Source: an uncultured Lachnospiraceae bacterium (lineage in GTDB: Bacteria; Bacillota; Clostridia; Lachnospirales; Lachnospiraceae). Taken from it: a DNA stretch of 40,134 bases. The stretch covers positions 1 to 40,134 of the forward strand of contig CANSTU010000027.1 in the NCBI GenBank assembly GCA_947650005.1. Reading direction: 5' to 3'. Shown here in pieces: positions 1 through 39,542 of this stretch. The position numbers and the translations under genes are program-made. The notes beneath the pieces were generated by a model that saw only the letters and a program-made list of their open reading frames with translations, ran no database searches and was not told where the DNA came from. Every line of letters begins with the position of its first letter. Position 1 is the first letter of the stretch.

Positions 1-312
1 GCCAAATGCATGATTGGTTCGATGGCCCCTCAGGCCTCCGTCCGGCTGCTTCATGTGCAGATGGGTCCGGAAGGGGGGCAGCGGCCGTACCATGTTTTTG
101 AACACCATCGCGCCAGATATTCCGATGAGCCCTGGACGCTTCCCTGTCGGGGTGTGTCCCTCCAGGGAAGCAGGTCTCATCTCCATGGCGCGAAATGTGT
201 CCAAAAACATGGTGCGGCGGCCGCGCCAGACTGGGCCGCCTTCCTCCAGGCGCCTTTACCGAGTACAGGAAGCAGCCGGGGCTATGGAGCCGCTGATCCA
301 TTCATGCATTTG
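1..312. repeat. Large imperfect palindrome / candidate structured RNA, copy 1
   Basis: The stretch folds on itself almost from end to end. Bases 3-17 pair with 298-312 with one mismatch, 42-52 with 269-279 (CCGGCTGCTTC/GAAGCAGCCGG), and 69-74 with 239-244. An inner arm around 81-104 pairs with 195-222 with a few wobbles. Inside lies a core at about 108-192 with stems CGCGCC/GGCGCG, GATGAG/CTCATC and CCCTGGA/TCCAGGG, an unpaired AAGCAGGT, and CCCTGTCGGG in the terminal loop. The same core, almost base for base, recurs at 14358-14443 with different outer arms. It may begin before the window. I do not recognise it. It could be an RNA, a cruciform-forming DNA element or a non-autonomous mobile element. 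Confidence 0.7.
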
Positions 313-335: not shown

Positions 336-365
336 TTGACATATCCCCCTTCATTTTGCTACAAT
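336..365 (+). promoter_or_regulatory. Promoter of the hybrid histidine kinase
   Basis: TTGACA (336-341), an 18-base spacer and TACAAT (360-365) make a good sigma-A promoter. It lies 24 bases after the end of the palindrome and about 90 bases before the kinase start codon. Confidence 0.65.
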
Positions 366-458
366 AAAACAGAGTTTGCCCGGGATTGGGGAACTGGGGA
401 AGGCTCACTTGGAAAAAACCGAATCAGGGTGGCGATAGAGCATGAGGAGGAAAGCAGA

Positions 459-3400
459 ATGTATCACTGTCATTTGCACTTCTATTTGGTAGGACGAAGC
501 TGCAGAACATTTGAGATCATAAAAGAAATATCCCCGTTGGAGCATTTTACCCATGAATTTTGGGAAAGTGAGTGGCCGGAGGGCGCATTGGTAAAGAAGG
601 CGGATGTGATTCTGGCTGTCATGCAGGGGGCGGATAGCGTTGAAACATTGCATGCGTTGCTTTCCGATAAAGCGAAGGATGCAGAGCTCATCCTCCTGGC
701 CAATCAGGATGGTTTCCAGCTTCCTTCCCGGGGAATGGAGGAAGTGAAGGATATCTGGCGGCTGCCCATGTCGGATGAGGAGTTGTTGTTCCGCTTCCAT
801 AGATGGCAGCAGGGCTGCAAGATGAGCAAGGATTTCTGGCAGACCAGCCAGTATCTGGAGACAGCCATCAATAATGTTCCAAACCTGGTCTGGTATAAGG
901 ATAAAAACGGGATCCATGAAAAGGTGAATGACAGCTTTTGCCGGACCGTTAATAAGGCGAAAAAGCAGGTGGAAGGGCAAGGTCATGCATATATCTGGGA
1001 TGTGGAGCAGGATGATCCTGCCTGCATCGAGTCGGAACGTCTGGTCATGACGAAAAAGGAGACCTGTATATCCGAGGAAACGGTTCTGACCGGAGGAGGG
1101 ACCAGGCTGCTCACCACCTATAAATCTCCCCTTTATGACCTGGATGGGAGCGTGATGGGGACTGTGGGCGTGGCCATAGACGTCACACAGGAGCGGGCCT
1201 ACGAACAGGAGATCATCAAAAAGAGTAAAACGCTGGAAACGATTTTTACCACCATGGAATGCGGTGTGATGTGCCATTCTTTGGATGGGAAGCGTATTCT
1301 CAGCGTGAATCAGGCGGCGCTTAAGATCCTTGGATACGAGTCTCAGGAAGAGATGTTGGCGGATGGATTTAATACGGTTGCGGCTTCCGTGCTGGAGGGT
1401 GACCGGGAGGAGCTTCAGGAACGGATCCAAAAGCTTCAGAAGGAAGGGGACAGTATCAGCGTGGAATACCGAGTCCGCCATAAGAGCGGGGAAATCCTGC
1501 ACGTGATGGGGAATGTGAAGCTTCTTCGGGAAAACGGGGAACTTCTCTATCAGCGCTTCCTTCTGGATATTACCGCCCAGAAGCTGCAGGAAAAGAAGCG
1601 GGAAAGGCATCAGATGGAACTGGTGCATGCGCTCGGCATAGATTATAACCTGATCTGTTTCTTTGACCTGGATACGGGAATGGGGTCTGCACTGCGGCTG
1701 GAGGATAATGACGACAGCCTGTTCGGAGGCGCTTTTACCGGCGAAATTTCTCTGGTAGGAAGCCTGGAATGTTACATACAAAAGTTTGTAGAGGAAGAGG
1801 ACCGGGAAATGCTTCGGGAGGCTTTTTCTCCGGAACGGTTGAAAAAGGAACTGACGACCAAAAGGTTGCACTATGCCAATTACCGGGTCCTTCAGGATGG
1901 TGAAACCAAATATTTTCAGATAAAAGCGGTGCGTGCGGGGTCGTGGGAAGATGGCACAGGCATTGTTCTGGGTTTCCGCAGCGTGGATGAAGAGATCCGC
2001 AATGCGATGGAGCAGAAAAACCTGTTGGAGGACGCACTCTTTCAGGCGAATCGGGCCAATAAGGCAAAAAGCGTATTCCTGTCCAATATGTCCCATGATA
2101 TCCGTACTCCGATGAACGCTATTGTGGGATTTACGGCATTGGCCCTTACTCATATCGAAAACAGGGATCAGGTGGAAGAATACCTGAAAAAAATTATGAC
2201 ATCAGGGAACCATTTGCTCAGCTTGATCAATGATGTGCTGGACATGAGCCGTATCGAAAGCGGAAAAATGCACTTGGAGGAGAAGCCCTGCCATCTGCCG
2301 GATATCCTCCATGCGCTGCGCAATATCGTGCAGGCGGATGTCCACGCCAAGCAGCTTGATCTCTACGTGGATGCGGTAGACATCGTGAATGAAGAGATCT
2401 ACTGCGATAAGCTGCGGTTAAATCAGGTGCTGCTGAATTTGCTGAGCAATGCCGTAAAATATACCGCGGCTGGCGGCATGATCAGCGTAAGAGTCTCAGA
2501 GAAAACCGGTGCGCCCGTGGGCCATGCAAATTATGAGTTCGTGATTAAGGATACCGGCATCGGGATGAGCGAGGAATTTGTCAACCATATTTTCGAGCCC
2601 TTTGAGCGGGAAAAGAATTCTACCATCAGCGGAATACAGGGAACCGGCCTTGGCATGGCGATCACAAAAAATATCGTGGATATGATGAACGGTTCCATCA
2701 AGGTGAAGAGCGAACAGGGTGTGGGCACGGAGTTTGCCGTTTCCTTTACCTTCCGTTTGAATTGCGAAGAAAGGATGAGCCAGGATATTCCGGAACTGAA
2801 AAACTGCAGGGCTTTGGTGGTGGATGATGACTTTAATACCTGCGACAGCGTGTCCTATATGCTCCAACAGATCGGGCTTCGGGCTGAATGGACCCTGTCC
2901 GGCAAGGAAGCGGTGCTGCGCACCCGTCAGGCGGTGACGCGGGGGGATGATTATGCTGTCTATATCATTGACTGGATGCTTCCGGACATGAACGGAGTGG
3001 AGGTCACCCGAAGAATCAGAAAGGAAACTGGGGAAAATGTCCCGATCATTGTTCTGACCGCATATGACTGGTCGGATATAGAGGAGGAGGCCAAGGAAGC
3101 CGGCGTGACAGCATTCTGCAGCAAACCGTTGTTCCTCTCGGAACTGCGCGGTTGTCTGCATTCCATCGTAAATGCGGAGGAAGAAGATGGAAAATGGGGA
3201 GCCGGCACAAGTAGGCAGCTGCGCGCCGGGCGAATCCTGCTGGCCGAGGATAATGAACTGAATCAGGAAATCGCTGTGGAGATTCTGCAGGATGCGGGCT
3301 TTACAACGGAGATAGCAGGGAACGGACAAATCGCCGTAGACATGCTGAAACAGTCCGAACCCGGCTATTACCAACTGATCCTGATGGATGTACAGATGCC

Positions 3401-3602
3401 GGTGATGGATGGCTATCAAGCGGTTAAAATTATCCGTAATTTAGGAAATAAGGAATTGGCTTCCATACCGATTCTTGCGATGACTGCAAATGCTTTTGAG
3501 GAGGATCGGCAGCAAGCCCTGCGATGCGGGATGAACGGGCATATTGCTAAGCCCATCGATATTAAGAACCTGTTCGATACTTTGGGAAAAGTGTTGGGCT
3601 AA
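459..3602 (+). CDS. PAS-domain hybrid sensor histidine kinase with two receiver domains
   Basis: This 1047-residue signalling protein autophosphorylates a histidine and passes phosphate to its own receivers. The N-terminal ~125 residues match nothing I recognise. PAS-like segments follow at about 130-250, 258-380 and 386-520. The HisKA box SHDIRTPMN holds the phosphorylated His546, and the ATPase domain runs about 645-760 (NAVKY, DTGIGM, GTGLGM). Receiver 1 is about 785-905 (Asp838 in IIDWMLPD) and receiver 2 about 925-1045 (Asp977 in LMDVQMP). No membrane segment or periplasmic domain is seen, so it probably senses a cytoplasmic signal. The start at 459 is chosen for GAGGAGG just upstream; the longer open frame from 336 overlaps the promoter. 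No separate response regulator is adjacent and the output partner is unknown. Confidence 0.9.
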   Translation: MYHCHLHFYLVGRSCRTFEIIKEISPLEHFTHEFWESEWPEGALVKKADVILAVMQGADSVETLHALLSDKAKDAELILLANQDGFQLPSRGMEEVKDIWRLPMSDEELLFRFHRWQQGCKMSKDFWQTSQYLETAINNVPNLVWYKDKNGIHEKVNDSFCRTVNKAKKQVEGQGHAYIWDVEQDDPACIESERLVMTKKETCISEETVLTGGGTRLLTTYKSPLYDLDGSVMGTVGVAIDVTQERAYEQEIIKKSKTLETIFTTMECGVMCHSLDGKRILSVNQAALKILGYESQEEMLADGFNTVAASVLEGDREELQERIQKLQKEGDSISVEYRVRHKSGEILHVMGNVKLLRENGELLYQRFLLDITAQKLQEKKRERHQMELVHALGIDYNLICFFDLDTGMGSALRLEDNDDSLFGGAFTGEISLVGSLECYIQKFVEEEDREMLREAFSPERLKKELTTKRLHYANYRVLQDGETKYFQIKAVRAGSWEDGTGIVLGFRSVDEEIRNAMEQKNLLEDALFQANRANKAKSVFLSNMSHDIRTPMNAIVGFTALALTHIENRDQVEEYLKKIMTSGNHLLSLINDVLDMSRIESGKMHLEEKPCHLPDILHALRNIVQADVHAKQLDLYVDAVDIVNEEIYCDKLRLNQVLLNLLSNAVKYTAAGGMISVRVSEKTGAPVGHANYEFVIKDTGIGMSEEFVNHIFEPFEREKNSTISGIQGTGLGMAITKNIVDMMNGSIKVKSEQGVGTEFAVSFTFRLNCEERMSQDIPELKNCRALVVDDDFNTCDSVSYMLQQIGLRAEWTLSGKEAVLRTRQAVTRGDDYAVYIIDWMLPDMNGVEVTRRIRKETGENVPIIVLTAYDWSDIEEEAKEAGVTAFCSKPLFLSELRGCLHSIVNAEEEDGKWGAGTSRQLRAGRILLAEDNELNQEIAVEILQDAGFTTEIAGNGQIAVDMLKQSEPGYYQLILMDVQMPVMDGYQAVKIIRNLGNKELASIPILAMTANAFEEDRQQALRCGMNGHIAKPIDIKNLFDTLGKVLG

Positions 3603-5080: not shown

Positions 5081-5596
5081 GTGCAAATCAGGGGTGGTAT
5101 CGGCGGAAGCTTGGGATACAGCAACCTGGCTGATGACGTAATTATAAGTCTCTCAGATGTGAAAGTCAATAAAATATATCGAATTTCAATAAAAATTTAT
5201 CGAGAAAGATAGTGCGGCTCTTTTGTATTTATATCATAAAAGGCCTCTTTATTTTTCAGATTATATTCAAAGATGCCGGATAACCTGCGGGGAGGCATGG
5301 GATAGAGCGGAAACAAAAAGAGCTGTCTCGTAGATAGTATGGGAACAGAGAAAATCGGCCGGAAAACGACATCCCCTGTTCCCGTCCTGGCGTCCGCTTA
5401 TTTATTTCTATCAGGCAGCGCGGCATATGATGAAGGTAACGTGAGATTTATGACTCCACGATTATGATCTGCACGCCTGCGAAAGCAGACGTATGGGAGT
5501 TAACGTGTATTTTTCAGGAAGATATTGACAATAATGGAAGGGGGACATATAATGACAGGAATTCGTTTTATGAAAATACAGAGAGGGGATCGAATT
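5081..5596 (+). other. Divergent intergenic region and leader of the peptide importer
   Basis: No gene is seen. GGGAACAG near 5341 pairs with CTGTTCCC near 5376-5383. A hairpin-SD cassette lies at 5473-5499 (CTGC, loop GAAA, GCAG, outer ACG/CGT arms, then TATGGGAG). The GGGAG is five bases before a GTG at 5505 that opens a frame of only seven codons. I could not assign a confident -35/-10 pair to either divergent gene. Confidence 0.45.
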
Positions 5597-13203: not shown

Positions 13204-14064
13204 TCATCCCACGAGCATCAGGAGCGTACCAGCCACAATCCCGGTCAATCCGGCCGCTGCCCTTTTGGACAGCCTTTCACCGAAGACCAGCCGGGAAAAA
13301 GCAATGGTTACGAGAATGCTGAGTTTATCTATGGGAGCGATTACGCTTGCGGGACCGCTTTTCAGCGCCCGATAATAGCAGAGCCAGGAAGCGCCGGTGG
13401 CAACGCCGGATAGACAGATGAACCAAAACTCCCTGCGGGGGATTTGGATGATCAGACGCTGTTTTTTTTGAAGAAAAACGACCAGCCAGGCCATCAAAAG
13501 GACAACGCCCGTTCGCAGCGCGGTACCTAAGTTGGATTCCACGCCGTTGATCCCTATTTTGCCGAAAATGGAAGTTAGGCTGGCGAACAGCGCGGATAGG
13601 GCTGCATATATGAACCAGGCATTCCCCTTCGTCTCCCGATCATCTTCCTTTCGCTGAATCATCATCCAGGTGCCTGTACTGATCGCCGCGAGGCCGGCCA
13701 GTTTCCAGACACTGATCGGTTCCCCCAGAAAGAGGAAAGCCAGCAGGATCGTGAGTACGATACTGGATTTGTCTACAGGAACCACTTTATTGATGCTGCC
13801 AAGCTGCAGAGCCCGGAAATAGCAAAGCCAGGAAGCGCCTGTGGACAATCCTGACAGGATCAAAAAGAACCAGATGGCGGAGGGAATAGCCGTAAGACCC
13901 TCCTGGGAACCCGTAAGGAATGCCATCAACCAGGAAAAGGCCAGCACAATAATAGTCCGTATGGCCGTCGCAATATCGGAATCCGTTTCTCTGATGCCGC
14001 ATTTCGCCAGAATTGCCGTGACCCCGGCAAAGAAGGCGGAACCGGCTGCAAATAAGAGCCACAT
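13204..14064 (-). CDS. EamA/DMT-family membrane transporter
   Basis: The 286-residue protein has about ten membrane spans arranged as two EamA repeats. Each ends in the same signature: GLSTGASWLCYFRALQLGS in the first half and GVATGASWLCYYRALKSGP in the second, followed by DKSSIV / DKLSIL. The family exports metabolites or drugs; the substrate cannot be predicted. The ATG at 14064 is preferred over that at 14070 because AAGG is then eight bases upstream. The 186-base gap to the ACT gene holds a CCGGA/TCCGG hairpin with an A/T-rich loop near 13087-13105, and no other gene is seen there. Confidence 0.85.
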   Translation of the reverse strand: MWLLFAAGSAFFAGVTAILAKCGIRETDSDIATAIRTIIVLAFSWLMAFLTGSQEGLTAIPSAIWFFLILSGLSTGASWLCYFRALQLGSINKVVPVDKSSIVLTILLAFLFLGEPISVWKLAGLAAISTGTWMMIQRKEDDRETKGNAWFIYAALSALFASLTSIFGKIGINGVESNLGTALRTGVVLLMAWLVVFLQKKQRLIIQIPRREFWFICLSGVATGASWLCYYRALKSGPASVIAPIDKLSILVTIAFSRLVFGERLSKRAAAGLTGIVAGTLLMLVG

Positions 14065-14239
14065 ATGCATCGCCTTTCTTCATCGTTCAGAACGGAGGAT
14101 TACAGATAGAGGTATGGCTAATCCACTCATACTATACATTTTCCGGGGAGGGAAGTCAACTGTCTATGTGCCAGGGCGGGATAAACGCATGAATCTGCAA
14201 ACCAGCCCTCTTTGACCCTGCGCCATCCCGTTTTGGCAT

Positions 14240-14556
14240 CAGCTGCACGTGGAAATTGGCGTTTCAGCCGTTGGGGCCCACGTACCCGACAGGAAACACC
14301 CCGAAGAGGAGTGTCCCAGGGGGAGCCGCAGAAGCCGCCCCATGTTTTCACCCGCCGTCGCGCCGGACATTTCGATGAGCCCTGGATGCCTCCCTGTCGG
14401 GCAGCGGCCCTCCAGGGAAGCAGGTCTCATCTGCATGGCGCGAAATGCGGGTGAAAACATGGGGCGGCTTCTGCGGCTCCCCCTGGGACGCTCCTCTTCG
14501 GGGTGTTTCCTGGCAGGCGTGTGAAAGCAAAGATGCCGGACATTTCTATGCAGCCG
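14240..14556. repeat. Large palindrome / candidate structured RNA, copy 2
   Basis: Bases 14290-14355 pair with 14447-14512: 66 bp without bulges and with a single G-T wobble (T14312/G14490). Outside this, GCTGCA near 14242 pairs with TGCAGC near 14549. Inside is the core shared with copy 1: CGCGCC/GGCGCG, GATGAG/CTCATC and CCCTGGA/TCCAGGG, with AAGCAGGT unpaired and CCCTGTCGGG in the terminal loop. The arms differ from copy 1 yet pair fully. It sits between divergent genes and ends 14 bases before the SDR promoter. No coding function is credible: both strands give near-identical spurious peptides because of the palindrome. Confidence 0.8.
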
Positions 14557-14598: not shown

Positions 14599-14658
14599 GA
14601 CAGTGACCAAAAAGCGACTTCAAAGGAGATGCTTAAAACAAAAAGGCAGGAGGTTATC

Positions 14659-15420
14659 ATGAAACAATTAAATGAAAAAACAGCCATTGTAACCGGCGCA
14701 GGCCAGGGAATCGGAAAAGGGATCGCGCTGCTTCTGGCTAAACGGGGCGTCAAGGTGGTGTGCACCGGCCGCAGGGCGGAACCGATTGAGGAGACAGTGA
14801 AGGAAATCCATGCACTGGGCGGAGAGGGATTTGCAATGACCTGTGATTCTTCCGATCGTGCACGTGTCAAAGAAGTGGTGGAGAAGACGGTCGCCACTTA
14901 TGGTACGGTGGATGTCATCATCAACAATGCCCAGGCAATCGCACCCTCCGCACCGGTGGAAGAGACCACTTACGACTCCATGTATATGGCATGGTCCACG
15001 GGAACCATCGGTTCTCTGAATTTCATGCAGGAGTGCTTCCCTTATATGAAGGAACAGGGTGAAGGCCGCGTGATTAATTTTGCATCCGCTACGGGAATGT
15101 TTGGCTATGCGGGACAGCTGGCCTATGCGTCCAATAAGGAAGCGATCCGCGGTTTGACAAAGATTGCGGCCAAGGAATGGGGACAGTACGGTATCTGCGT
15201 CAACTGCGTGCTGCCCGGTGCGGAATCTCCTGCCGCTAAGGTGTGGGCGGAAAAGTTCCCCGAAAAATATCAGGCCATCCTTCAGCAGCAGCCCATGCGT
15301 CGGCTAGGGGATGCAGAGAATGATATTGCGCCGGTTATCGCGTTTCTCAGCGGCCCGGATTCCTGCTATTATTCAGGACAATGCCTGTTGGTGGACGGGG
15401 CGTATTCCATCGCACCATAA
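14659..15420 (+). CDS. Short-chain dehydrogenase/reductase (SDR)
   Basis: The 253-residue classical SDR uses NAD(P)H to interconvert an alcohol and a ketone. The cofactor loop TGAGQGIG is at 12-19, the NNAQ motif (normally NNAG) follows, and the catalytic Y156xxxK160 lies in AYASNK. The C-terminal GPDSCYYSGQCLLVDGAYS is typical of FabG/3-ketoacyl-reductase-like SDRs. Arg at CTGRRAEP after the second strand suggests NADP(H) preference, which is inference. The start at 14659 has GGAGG upstream. It is monocistronic, closed by a strong terminator. Confidence 0.88.
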   Translation: MKQLNEKTAIVTGAGQGIGKGIALLLAKRGVKVVCTGRRAEPIEETVKEIHALGGEGFAMTCDSSDRARVKEVVEKTVATYGTVDVIINNAQAIAPSAPVEETTYDSMYMAWSTGTIGSLNFMQECFPYMKEQGEGRVINFASATGMFGYAGQLAYASNKEAIRGLTKIAAKEWGQYGICVNCVLPGAESPAAKVWAEKFPEKYQAILQQQPMRRLGDAENDIAPVIAFLSGPDSCYYSGQCLLVDGAYSIAP

Positions 15421-15642: not shown

Positions 15643-15775
15643 TGAAAAAGGTCGAAATTTGGTGATAATGAAAAAATGAATCGATTTTAACTCGCATTTT
15701 GCACAAAAAATATGAAGAGATTTCGTCTGGAATCAATAAAAATAAGATTGTTGAACAAAAAATATGGAAAAGCAG

Positions 15776-29240: not shown

Positions 29241-29535
29241 GCCGTTAAAGCGGGGTGAAGGGAGAAAAATTGAAAGAAATGCGCTTTCAATTTTCTTGAT
29301 ATAAATGCGTGCCAAAGCACGCGGAGGGGAGAAAAATTGAAAGAAATGCACTTTTAATTTCTTTGATTAAATGCGTGCCAAAGCACGCGGAGGGGAGAAA
29401 AATTGAAAGAAATGCACTTTTAATTTCTTTGATTAAATGCGTGCCAAAGCACGCGGAAGGGAGAAAAATTGAAAGAAATGCGCTTTCAATTTTCTTGATA
29501 TAAATGCGCGCCAAAGCACGCAGATAGGAGAAAAA
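29241..29535 (+). repeat. Tandem array of 66-bp hairpin-SD units
   Basis: Unit starts at about 29241 (degenerate), 29307, 29373, 29439 and 29506. Each unit has a hairpin such as GCGTGC, loop CAAA, GCACGC; then a purine-rich GGAGGGGAGAAAA; then a second AT-rich hairpin (TTGAAAG/CTTTCAA in some units). The last unit ends in AGATAGGAGAAAAA and the ATG of the HAD gene, so its SD is used. The 66-base period keeps frames open on both strands, producing repetitive spurious peptides. Confidence 0.8.
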
Positions 29536-30138
29536 ATGATACGGACGATTATTTTTGACATTGGAAATGTCCTGACGGCTTTTGGCTGGCGGGATTTCAT
29601 GGGAAGCTTCGGTTTTGATAAAGAGACGGAAGCGAAGGTATGCCGGGCCACGGTGGAAAGCCCCTTCTGGTGCGAATGTGACAGGGGCGTACTTAGCGAC
29701 GAAGAGATTCTGGACGGATTCATCCAAAACGACCCAACTGTAGAAAAAGAACTTCGCCAGGTCTATTCCAATCTTCATGGGATTGTGACGCGGCTGGACT
29801 ACGCCATTCCCTGGATCCAGGAACTGAAGGAAAAGGGGTACCAGGTTCTGGTACTCTCCAACTTTTCCGAAAAAGGATGGCATGAAAACCAGGATGCCCT
29901 GGATTTCATGGAATATGTGGATGGAGGAATCATTTCCTATACGAAACAGCTGATCAAGCCGGATCCAGCCATTTACCGCCTGCTTCTAGACCAATATGGC
30001 CTCAAAGCAGAGGAATGCGTCTTCCTGGACGATACTGCCGTAAATGTAAAGGGCGCGGAGAGCGTGGGAATGAACGGCATTGTGTTCGAAAATCGGGAGC
30101 AGGCCATTGCGGAGCTGAAGAAACTGGGCGTGGAATAG
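29536..30138 (+). CDS. HAD-superfamily phosphatase, YihX-like
   Basis: The 200-residue hydrolase has the HAD core: nucleophile Asp8 in FDIGNVL, VLSNFSEKG (motif II), LIKPDPAIY (motif III lysine) and VFLDDTAVNV (motif IV). Motif I is D-x-G rather than D-x-D, as in YihX-type alpha-glucose-1-phosphate phosphatases, so a small sugar phosphate is a reasonable but unproven substrate. AGATAGGAG from the last tandem unit is the ribosome site, placed seven bases before the ATG. Confidence 0.85.
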   Translation: MIRTIIFDIGNVLTAFGWRDFMGSFGFDKETEAKVCRATVESPFWCECDRGVLSDEEILDGFIQNDPTVEKELRQVYSNLHGIVTRLDYAIPWIQELKEKGYQVLVLSNFSEKGWHENQDALDFMEYVDGGIISYTKQLIKPDPAIYRLLLDQYGLKAEECVFLDDTAVNVKGAESVGMNGIVFENREQAIAELKKLGVE

Positions 30139-31850: not shown

Positions 31851-31904
31851 GCGCTATTGTAAGGAATATTGTGAAATCTACGTTTTCACGATGTTGATGG
31901 GTAT

Positions 31905-32011
31905 GCCTGCTGAAGTAGGTAGATGGAAGCTTGTGTGAAATCTTTGGTTTCCTATGAAACGAGAGTTTCCTTAACCTGATTTGTATGCTTGCTGAAGCAG
32001 GTATATGGGAG
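31905..32011 (+). repeat. Composite hairpin-SD repeat before oxidoreductase 1
   Basis: There are two cassettes: stem around TGAA then AGATGGAAG (31905-31929), and an 8-bp stem around TGAA then ATATGGGAG (31985-32011). Between them GTTTC-GAAAC-GTTTC (31947-31969) can form either of two exclusive hairpins. The layout is repeated at 33264-33369. A further AAAGGAG before the ATG is the likely ribosome site. Confidence 0.65.
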
Positions 32012-32040
32012 TTTGCTAAAAGAGAAAGGAGAGCTTTATC

Positions 32041-33228: not shown

Positions 33229-33263
33229 TGAAACAGGATGCGGTATAATAGCGTGAAATGAAT

Positions 33264-33369
33264 GCCCGCTAAGGCGGGCAGACGGGAGTTAGCGCGAAAT
33301 CTTTGGTTTCCCAGGAAACGAAGTTTCCTTTGCTTGAATTGAGTGCCCGTCAAGGCGGGCAGATGGGAG
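33264..33369 (+). repeat. Composite hairpin-SD repeat before oxidoreductase 2
   Basis: GCCCGC, TAAG, GCGGGC, AGACGGGAG (33264-33288); then GTTTCC-GGAAAC-GTTTCC (33306-33328), whose middle part can pair either way; then GCCCGT, CAAG, GCGGGC, AGATGGGAG (33345-33369). The last GGGAG is the ribosome site for the ATG at 33380. Confidence 0.75.
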
Positions 33370-33379
33370 TTAGGTTAAT

Positions 33380-34390: not shown

Positions 34391-34458
34391 GCGGGTAAAG
34401 CAAACGTTTTGGGCTGTGTGCGTTCTTGGGCGCAGAGGGGATCTCCCTGATTTGTCTT

Positions 34459-34482
34459 CCCGCTAAAGCGGGCAGATGGGAA
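34459..34482 (+). promoter_or_regulatory. Hairpin-SD cassette in the gap before TIM barrel 2
   Basis: CCCGC, TAAA, GCGGG, C, AGATGGGAA, preceded by CTGATTTG. It lies about 95 bases before the next start, which uses its own GGAGG. Confidence 0.6.
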
Positions 34483-34575
34483 CAAAGATGAAAACGAGCC
34501 GGAGGAACGGGAATTTTCCGGCCGATGAGGGTTGGCCGGCAGAAGATATGTGCCGACAGATTGGAGGAAATAATC

Positions 34576-39470: not shown

Positions 39471-39542
39471 TCCTCGATAGCTCAATGGTAGAGCACGCGG
39501 CTGTTAACCGCGGGGTTGTTGGTTCGAGCCCAACTCGGGGAG
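39471..39542 (+). tRNA. tRNA-Asn (anticodon GTT)
   Basis: Full cloverleaf: acceptor TCCTCGA/TCGGGGA, D arm GCTC/GAGC, anticodon arm CGCGG/CCGCG with CTGTTAA loop, and T arm TTGGTTCGAGCCCAA. Discriminator G. CCA is not encoded. Confidence 0.95.

Follow-up and report, generated by a model that had tools for sequence, protein, structure and literature searches.

The foldback element that occurs twice in the window (the whole stretch of 40,134 nucleotides analyzed here, one entire contig of the uncultured Lachnospiraceae genome G000, 3,591,648 bases) very probably belongs to a family of MITE-like foldback DNA transposons that are full-length and non-autonomous and whose arms are kept matched by DNA copying. 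The first-pass annotation of this DNA had favored a structured RNA and named a mobile element as the main alternative; the alternative is the better supported of the two, with dozens of mostly intergenic copies in the genome and with inverted ends and target-site duplications in relatives. Genomes and loci are referred to below by G and L numbers, respectively.

Copies in the window and their relatives

Both copies in the window fold back on themselves around a common core (Table 1). None of 100 shuffled sequences folded as well as copy 1 or as copy 2, the latter having a fold z of −17.3. The strong arms of copy 2 form an inverted repeat of 71 nt that is 96% complementary, and copy 1, which starts 2 bases from the contig end, has more bulges. 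The core, 93 nt long in copy 2, is conserved in both copies as had been claimed, and covariance model R1 matches it at 94–205 (128.8 bits) and 14344–14455 (128.6 bits). The outer arms had been called completely different in the two copies, but an ungapped comparison of 78–225 with 14328–14475 gives 80% identity. The sequence GGACATTTC at 14365 is repeated at 14538, and the second, partial GCCGGACATTTC beside copy 2 (14532–14546) is perhaps, we infer, the remnant of an older copy. A Pfam scan found no transposase among the five window ORFs near the copies, and nothing in the whole window except one tRNA reached the Rfam gathering score.

Table 1. Coordinates of the elements and neighboring features (window positions unless a locus is named)
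Feature	Position	Strand	Remarks
Copy 1 of element	3..312	+	Outer pair CAAATGCATGA / TCATGCATTTG; fold z −9.3; among the 78 genomic motif places
Conserved core, copy 1	105..197	+	40 scored matches in its own genome, 85–100% identity
Copy 2, outline of the first-pass annotation	14240..14556	+	Strong arms 14285–14355 / 14447–14517; outer parts pair weakly
Conserved core, copy 2	14355..14447	+	88% identity to the copy 1 core
Candidate decayed second core fragment GATGCCGGACATTTC	14532..14546	+	Right outer part of copy 2
Promoter-like TTGACA...TACAAT	336..365	+	Elements at 336 and 360, immediately right of copy 1; consensus match only
PAS/histidine kinase/response regulator ORF	336..3602	+	Right neighbor of copy 1; ORF and Pfam; start putative
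EamA-family transporter	13204..14070	-	Left neighbor of copy 2, divergent; Pfam
Short-chain dehydrogenase	14629..15420	+	Right neighbor of copy 2; Pfam
tRNA gene	39471-39542		Rfam, gathering score
Second giant-hairpin family with GCGAAAGC hairpin in core	L143:17945-18180, L158-L187		High-copy in sister species

Other repeats were also noted in the window. A palindromic repeat with a core of about GCCCGC...GCGGGCAGATGGGAG is present at 5462, 9369, 29246–29541, 31903–32015, 33251–33373, and 34445–34493, being near-tandem at 29246–29541 with copies 66–67 nt apart. A pair of 37-nt direct repeats at 15678–15766 (start-to-start distance 52 nt, 70% alike) has a related AT-rich stretch in G002.

A 20-nt core motif, allowing up to 3 mismatches, was found at 78 places in the 3.6-Mb genome (42 forward and 36 reverse), and the reversed pattern used as a control at none. 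The foldbacks that had been placed at 1–312 and 14240–14556 are present, at 3–312 and with strong arms within 14285–14517, but they are not the only two, and a two-copy RNA gene is ruled out by these 78 places. In a DNA search with the copy 1 core, all 40 scored candidates of 110 matched. Distinct sequences recovered from the motif places number 77, of which 54 with a complete 112-nt region make up alignment A2. Many others are truncated by contig ends; because the repeat broke the assembly at these points, a single real copy may be counted as two truncated ones. Model R1 gave 103 matches in G000; this overstates the copy number, since the hairpins are also matched as shadows on the reverse strand.

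The search of Lachnospiraceae with a covariance model, which the first-pass annotation had proposed, found relatives under strict filters in 16 of 397 genomes and 13 of 334 genera, including its own; the G173 match (L124) among the 16 is doubtful. Ten model-positive genomes that were searched more deeply have 1 to 23 matches each. By plain DNA similarity, one of 60 other genomes (G002) matches. A second model (R2), in which the middle stem is poorly defined, matched under strict filters in three of 391 genomes of the class, G000 among them; all three are of the same bacterial family, and no core of this type (core A) was found outside it in that set. An exact 21-nt pattern with two free bases occurred in one contig (L109, Lachnospiraceae bacterium MAG S29_Bin8) of an 84,980-species collection, which may exclude the window's own genome, and in no viral contig.

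A giant hairpin with a different core is present in G002, both at the locus matching the right neighbor of copy 2 and elsewhere. By eye this second core (CCGGTCCTTA ... TTAGTACCGC and GCGAAAGC) has no similarity to the first. Within the genus it has at least 41 matches in G002, at least 40 in G001, 27 in G012, 11 in G003, and 6 in G000. Its arms are copy-specific and near-perfect, with 101 mismatches and 13 gaps in 3945 columns (51 rows; 4 of 55 had no arm seed, and five pairs are the same locus counted twice).

Core structure and matched arms

A five-helix core structure is supported by the 54 copies of alignment A2, in which 96.6% of cells are paired and 24 of the 32 pairs show double changes. 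Double-change cells number 244 as compared with 73.7 in shuffles, and slid controls are lower on every measure, so the covariation that had been predicted for the inner stems is present. One of these stems had been drawn as CCCTGGA/TCCAGGG, which is a mispairing: its central pair is T-A in 26 of the 54 copies and T-T in 22, and an alternative partner for this third stem gives A-T in 24, T-A in 20, and A-A in 7. The unpaired core bases were rightly described as conserved, the mean consensus frequency being 0.86 in unpaired and 0.89 in paired columns.

The cross-genera alignment has 22 sequences and 12 invariant columns; alignment A4 omits L124, a doubtful match of 75 nt, and L127, which is decayed. 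Three bases of the internal-loop CATT are invariant across genera and one is at 95%, and most bases of the CCATGG opposite are at 86–100%. Double-change cells number 79 as compared with 22.8 in shuffles and 88.0% of cells are paired, with no excess of further pair types (26 as compared with 26.2). The two innermost helices are paired in just 76–77% of cells. Because the loop bases around CATT and CCATGG are kept across genera, the core is probably functional and under selection, perhaps as a DNA recognition hairpin or as an RNA structure. Its shape and loops are kept although arms and ends differ, and some factor probably recognizes it, in the form of either DNA or RNA. Covarying stems and conserved loops are thus seen, yet in these elements they are not specific to RNA.

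The statement that no named class could be recognized holds: Rfam gave no family over the elements at gathering score in the window or in sets of 6 and 12 loci searched at E up to 5. An RRE match over the element in L092 scored 32 bits where 104 are needed, and a long hairpin can give such a score by chance. A lysine riboswitch (L018) and a TwoAYGGAY RNA (L112) both lie outside the elements.

Within each copy the arms match closely. In G000 there are 118 mismatches and 15 gaps in 4526 columns (54 rows), and the arms outside the core, with a median of 88 columns, are perfect in 20 of 51 copies (counts that omit L105, which has the motif without the structure, and L001 and L093, which have incomplete arms). 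Over the 40 nt adjacent to the core, the difference is 2.6% between the arms of one copy and 62% between copies, the latter value being too high because the comparison was ungapped. When the copies are aligned, the inner arms are related to each other and the outer parts fall into several types.

Selection on a transcript is expected to leave G-U pairs more numerous than A-C mismatches. The arm mismatches were 59 G-U to 42 A-C in G000 (p = 0.11), 10 to 19 in G012, and 20 to 29 in the other genomes (one locus, L282 = L310, being counted twice; of 46 loci, 11 lacked an arm seed and two a core motif). The pooled ratio of 89 to 90 shows no excess. Within G000, the best-kept arms have 22 to 8 (p = 0.016, uncorrected) and the worn arms 35 to 30, and the core helices have 20 to 12; the values for the best-kept arms and the core helices make some constraint at the RNA level possible.

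The G012 copies resolve changes at low divergence. Among 16 similar copies of 20, the arm cells, which include a few columns of the flanks, comprise 55 double changes that remain paired, 55 one-sided changes, and 8 double changes that are unpaired; the core pairs have one paired double change and 12 one-sided changes. Counted as distinct states, the arms have 29 paired double, 43 one-sided, and 5 unpaired double changes, of which 19, 34, and 3, respectively, are private to one copy. At the G012 rate, independent mutation would by a rough estimate be expected to produce far less than one matched double change. In the same alignment L219 and L226 have matched deletions in both arms. In L120 and L121, from two close relatives that have a single copy of the element each, 142 nt of the center are inverted (positions 1487–1631) between flanks that are collinear and 96–97% identical.

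According to the accessible text of PMC8604942, template switching leaves two signs, homogenized arms and an inverted spacer, and in that of PMC8794818 it is proposed as the origin of compensatory changes in RNA stems. Template switching from arm to arm would explain the matched arms, the matched indels, and the inversion of the center, although the inversion could also have arisen by recombination between the arms. Because it would explain the pairing of the arms, their covariation is not evidence for an RNA and is best read as a product of DNA copying. The earlier proposal that compensatory outer arms indicate a structured RNA is accordingly not upheld, given the lack of a pooled G-U excess and the matched indels in young arms.

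Ends, duplications, and genomic placement

Defined ends are present in two genomes of other genera, G211 and G427, in which all 26 of the R1-matched copies examined have both inverted ends (AGGYAATTGCGAAAC or a near match). At least 7 nt of flanking sequence are shared in 16 of these 26 copies, as compared with a mean of 0.8 and a maximum of 5 in 500 shuffles. A wider set picked by its ends has target-site duplications in 26 of 37 (shuffled mean 1.2, maximum 6), namely in 15 of the 17 that reach 200 nt, the length by which elements were classed as core-bearing, and in 11 of the 20 short ones without core; one of 38 loci is single-ended, and L343 and L344 are the same, including their flanks. 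Twelve G211 elements of 284–332 nt have a core-like center by eye and are absent from the R1 matches, and for this reason the duplication test was repeated on the R1-matched copies only. With up to 1 mismatch, AGGYAATTGCGAAAC occurs 145 times in G211 and 85 times in G427, against a control of 1 in either genome, and 3 times in G000, where the control is also 1. Eleven of the G427 elements that were read are short forms of 62–65 nt; as the short forms show, either the ends can move when no core is present or the core is frequently lost by deletion. In G211, L343–L348 represent a longer form, about 330 nt, whose center contains an additional domain of some 48 nt that the 284-nt form lacks.

The second core also has defined ends. 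Of 20 second-core copies in G012, 16 have both GGGTGCAGATAAAAA ends (up to 3 mismatches) and 14 have duplications of at least 6 nt (shuffled mean 1.5, maximum 6; 200 shuffles), with plain 9-nt duplications in L216, L220, L221, and L224. Several of L235–L238, L243, and L250–L254 (G012 and G001) have GGGTGCAGATAAAAA ends without a facing partner nearby; these, beside genes, are perhaps remnants.

The window's own genome has no single conserved sequence at the outer ends, and its duplication signal is weak: 6 of 50 copies have one of 6 nt, where shuffles gave a mean of 1.5 and a maximum of 6 (L021 was omitted besides L105, L001, and L093). In G001, no excess of duplications was seen (2 of 22; shuffled mean 0.7). 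The ends and duplications in G000 look decayed, and since they vary and are weak, the mobility of the window copies is inferred from the relatives. There, the inverted ends and target-site duplications indicate that each element was cut at its ends and inserted as a unit of DNA.

The elements that were measured extend from 47 to about 400 nt and carry no transposase of their own. No transposase partner or autonomous copy was found among ORFs read by eye in the stretches inspected, and no autonomous parent of the GGGTGCAGATAAAAA ends among the ORFs of 15 stretches. Two stretches, of about 2 and 3 kb, that lie between facing AGGYAATTGCGAAAC ends were considered as a possible parent and rejected, for their ORFs, read by eye, are host-like; for G211 this covers the sites listed, and a parent may lie elsewhere in that genome. 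In a search of six genomes, PF06782, which we take to be the ISLre2-type transposase, had no match in G000, G001, G002, or G211, one match in G012 that lacks the ends, and two pieces in G427. No clean empty site was proven among the loci compared in G002 and G012. The copy 2 locus in G002 is occupied by the other core type, and the locus matching L099 in the same genome is filled by a third repeat, similar to the GCCCGC...GCGGGCAGATGGGAG type. In G012 no foldback or inverted 10-mer is present upstream of the right neighbor of copy 2, and the left neighbor is unmatched.

Gene positions around the copies were taken from a crude ORF predictor. An ORF was called over the core in 7 of 76 copies and in none of the other 69. 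Gene 3′ ends that face an element are at a median of 15.5 nt (30 nt or less in 41 of 52), and gene 5′ ends at a median of 132 nt (30 nt or less in 1 of 66). The orientations of the neighbors, in 44 copies with both called, are ++ in 14, −+ in 12, +− in 11, and −− in 7. The right neighbor is co-oriented with the element in 40 cases as compared with 23 (p = 0.04). As a 3′ UTR element the family was rejected on orientation, there being no clear bias across neighbors. The placement is consistent with elements that insert at any site, the harmful insertions being lost afterwards.

Origin of the family and its significance

Three other origins were weighed against that of a MITE-like transposon. A family of structured RNAs, dispersed as small RNAs or 3′ UTR elements and kept paired in arms and core by selection on the transcript, would agree with the covarying inner stems, the unpaired bases kept across genera, the G-U excess in the best-kept arms, and the co-orientation of the right neighbor. 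We nevertheless judge it distinctly unlikely: of the 44 copies, 12 are flanked by divergent genes and so would be transcribed from neither neighbor, the G-U excess is absent from the pooled counts, and the perfect arms of 20 of the 51 copies, the indels matched between arms, the target-site duplications in relatives, and the element inverted in place all argue against it. The same 12 copies between divergent genes count against repeated transcription terminators or insulators, which the strong hairpins adjoining gene 3′ ends might suggest; moreover, no regular U-tract was seen 3′ of the hairpin in the part of the copies inspected by eye, and the internal loops kept across genera are unneeded in a terminator. 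This origin is highly improbable.

Domesticated palindromes of the REP/BIME type, immobile in this genome and binding a host protein in regulation or chromosome organization, are an unlikely explanation. The regular siting by stop codons and away from gene starts, the conserved core loops, and the varied ends and weak duplications in G000 are in its favor, but the placement is equally expected from the loss of harmful insertions, and the spread is patchy (16 of 397 family genomes by model and one of 60 relatives by DNA). REP/BIME palindromes are linked to the RAYT transposase and are small, 20–40 bp, the present elements being far longer.

For the MITE-like transposon, the following mechanism may be proposed. 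A transposase made elsewhere in the cell would move the elements, and the arms would be kept identical while the hairpin replicates, either by template switching or by conversion of one arm by the other; each copy would then drift as a matched pair of arms, and the core would escape this homogenization. A tentative extension, on balance rather doubtful, is that the core is a mobile functional module, either a single-stranded DNA recognition hairpin or an RNA, that is carried by different transposon ends across the family, with arms rewritten by hairpin-templated copying at each replication or move; the second core would behave likewise in the sister species.

The family shares features with several described repeats. 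ERIC, YPAL, RPE, and NEMIS/Correia, as presented in the accessible part of PMC2229807, are also short, non-coding, repeated, often intergenic foldback sequences with inverted ends, and the MITE-like members among them have target-site duplications, as here. By the descriptions in that part, the present elements differ in being longer (about 210–400 nt in core-bearing forms), in having long arms that are copy-specific yet matched, and in conserving the center, not the ends, between genera. The inverted repeats homogenized by template switching in PMC8794818 and PMC8604942 have the same compensatory multi-base changes and, in PMC8604942, an inverted spacer as here; the cases in the accessible text of both are RNA genes and yeast coding genes, whereas ours is a mobile-type repeat with much longer arms. 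The stem-loop sequence families of PMC2267715 are likewise repeated in bacterial genomes and were found with profile models; the comparison is with their description, and the species named in the accessible text are others. Candidate palindromic RNAs of human microbiomes (PMC8040213) are also palindromic, some possibly REP-like, and the present family may conceivably be identical to one of them. No description of this repeat family was found in the literature searched, which lay largely outside subscription papers, and we could not match this family of foldback MITE-like elements to those described.

Covariation is the usual proof of a functional RNA. Here it apparently arises at the level of DNA, as matched substitutions and indels at low divergence, and the clean inversion of the center in L120 and L121 adds to this natural case. 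The family is thus a warning for covariation-based calls of new RNAs, and its repeats provide a test bed for template switching. In the genomes of these bacteria it occupies intergenic regions and causes breaks in the assemblies.
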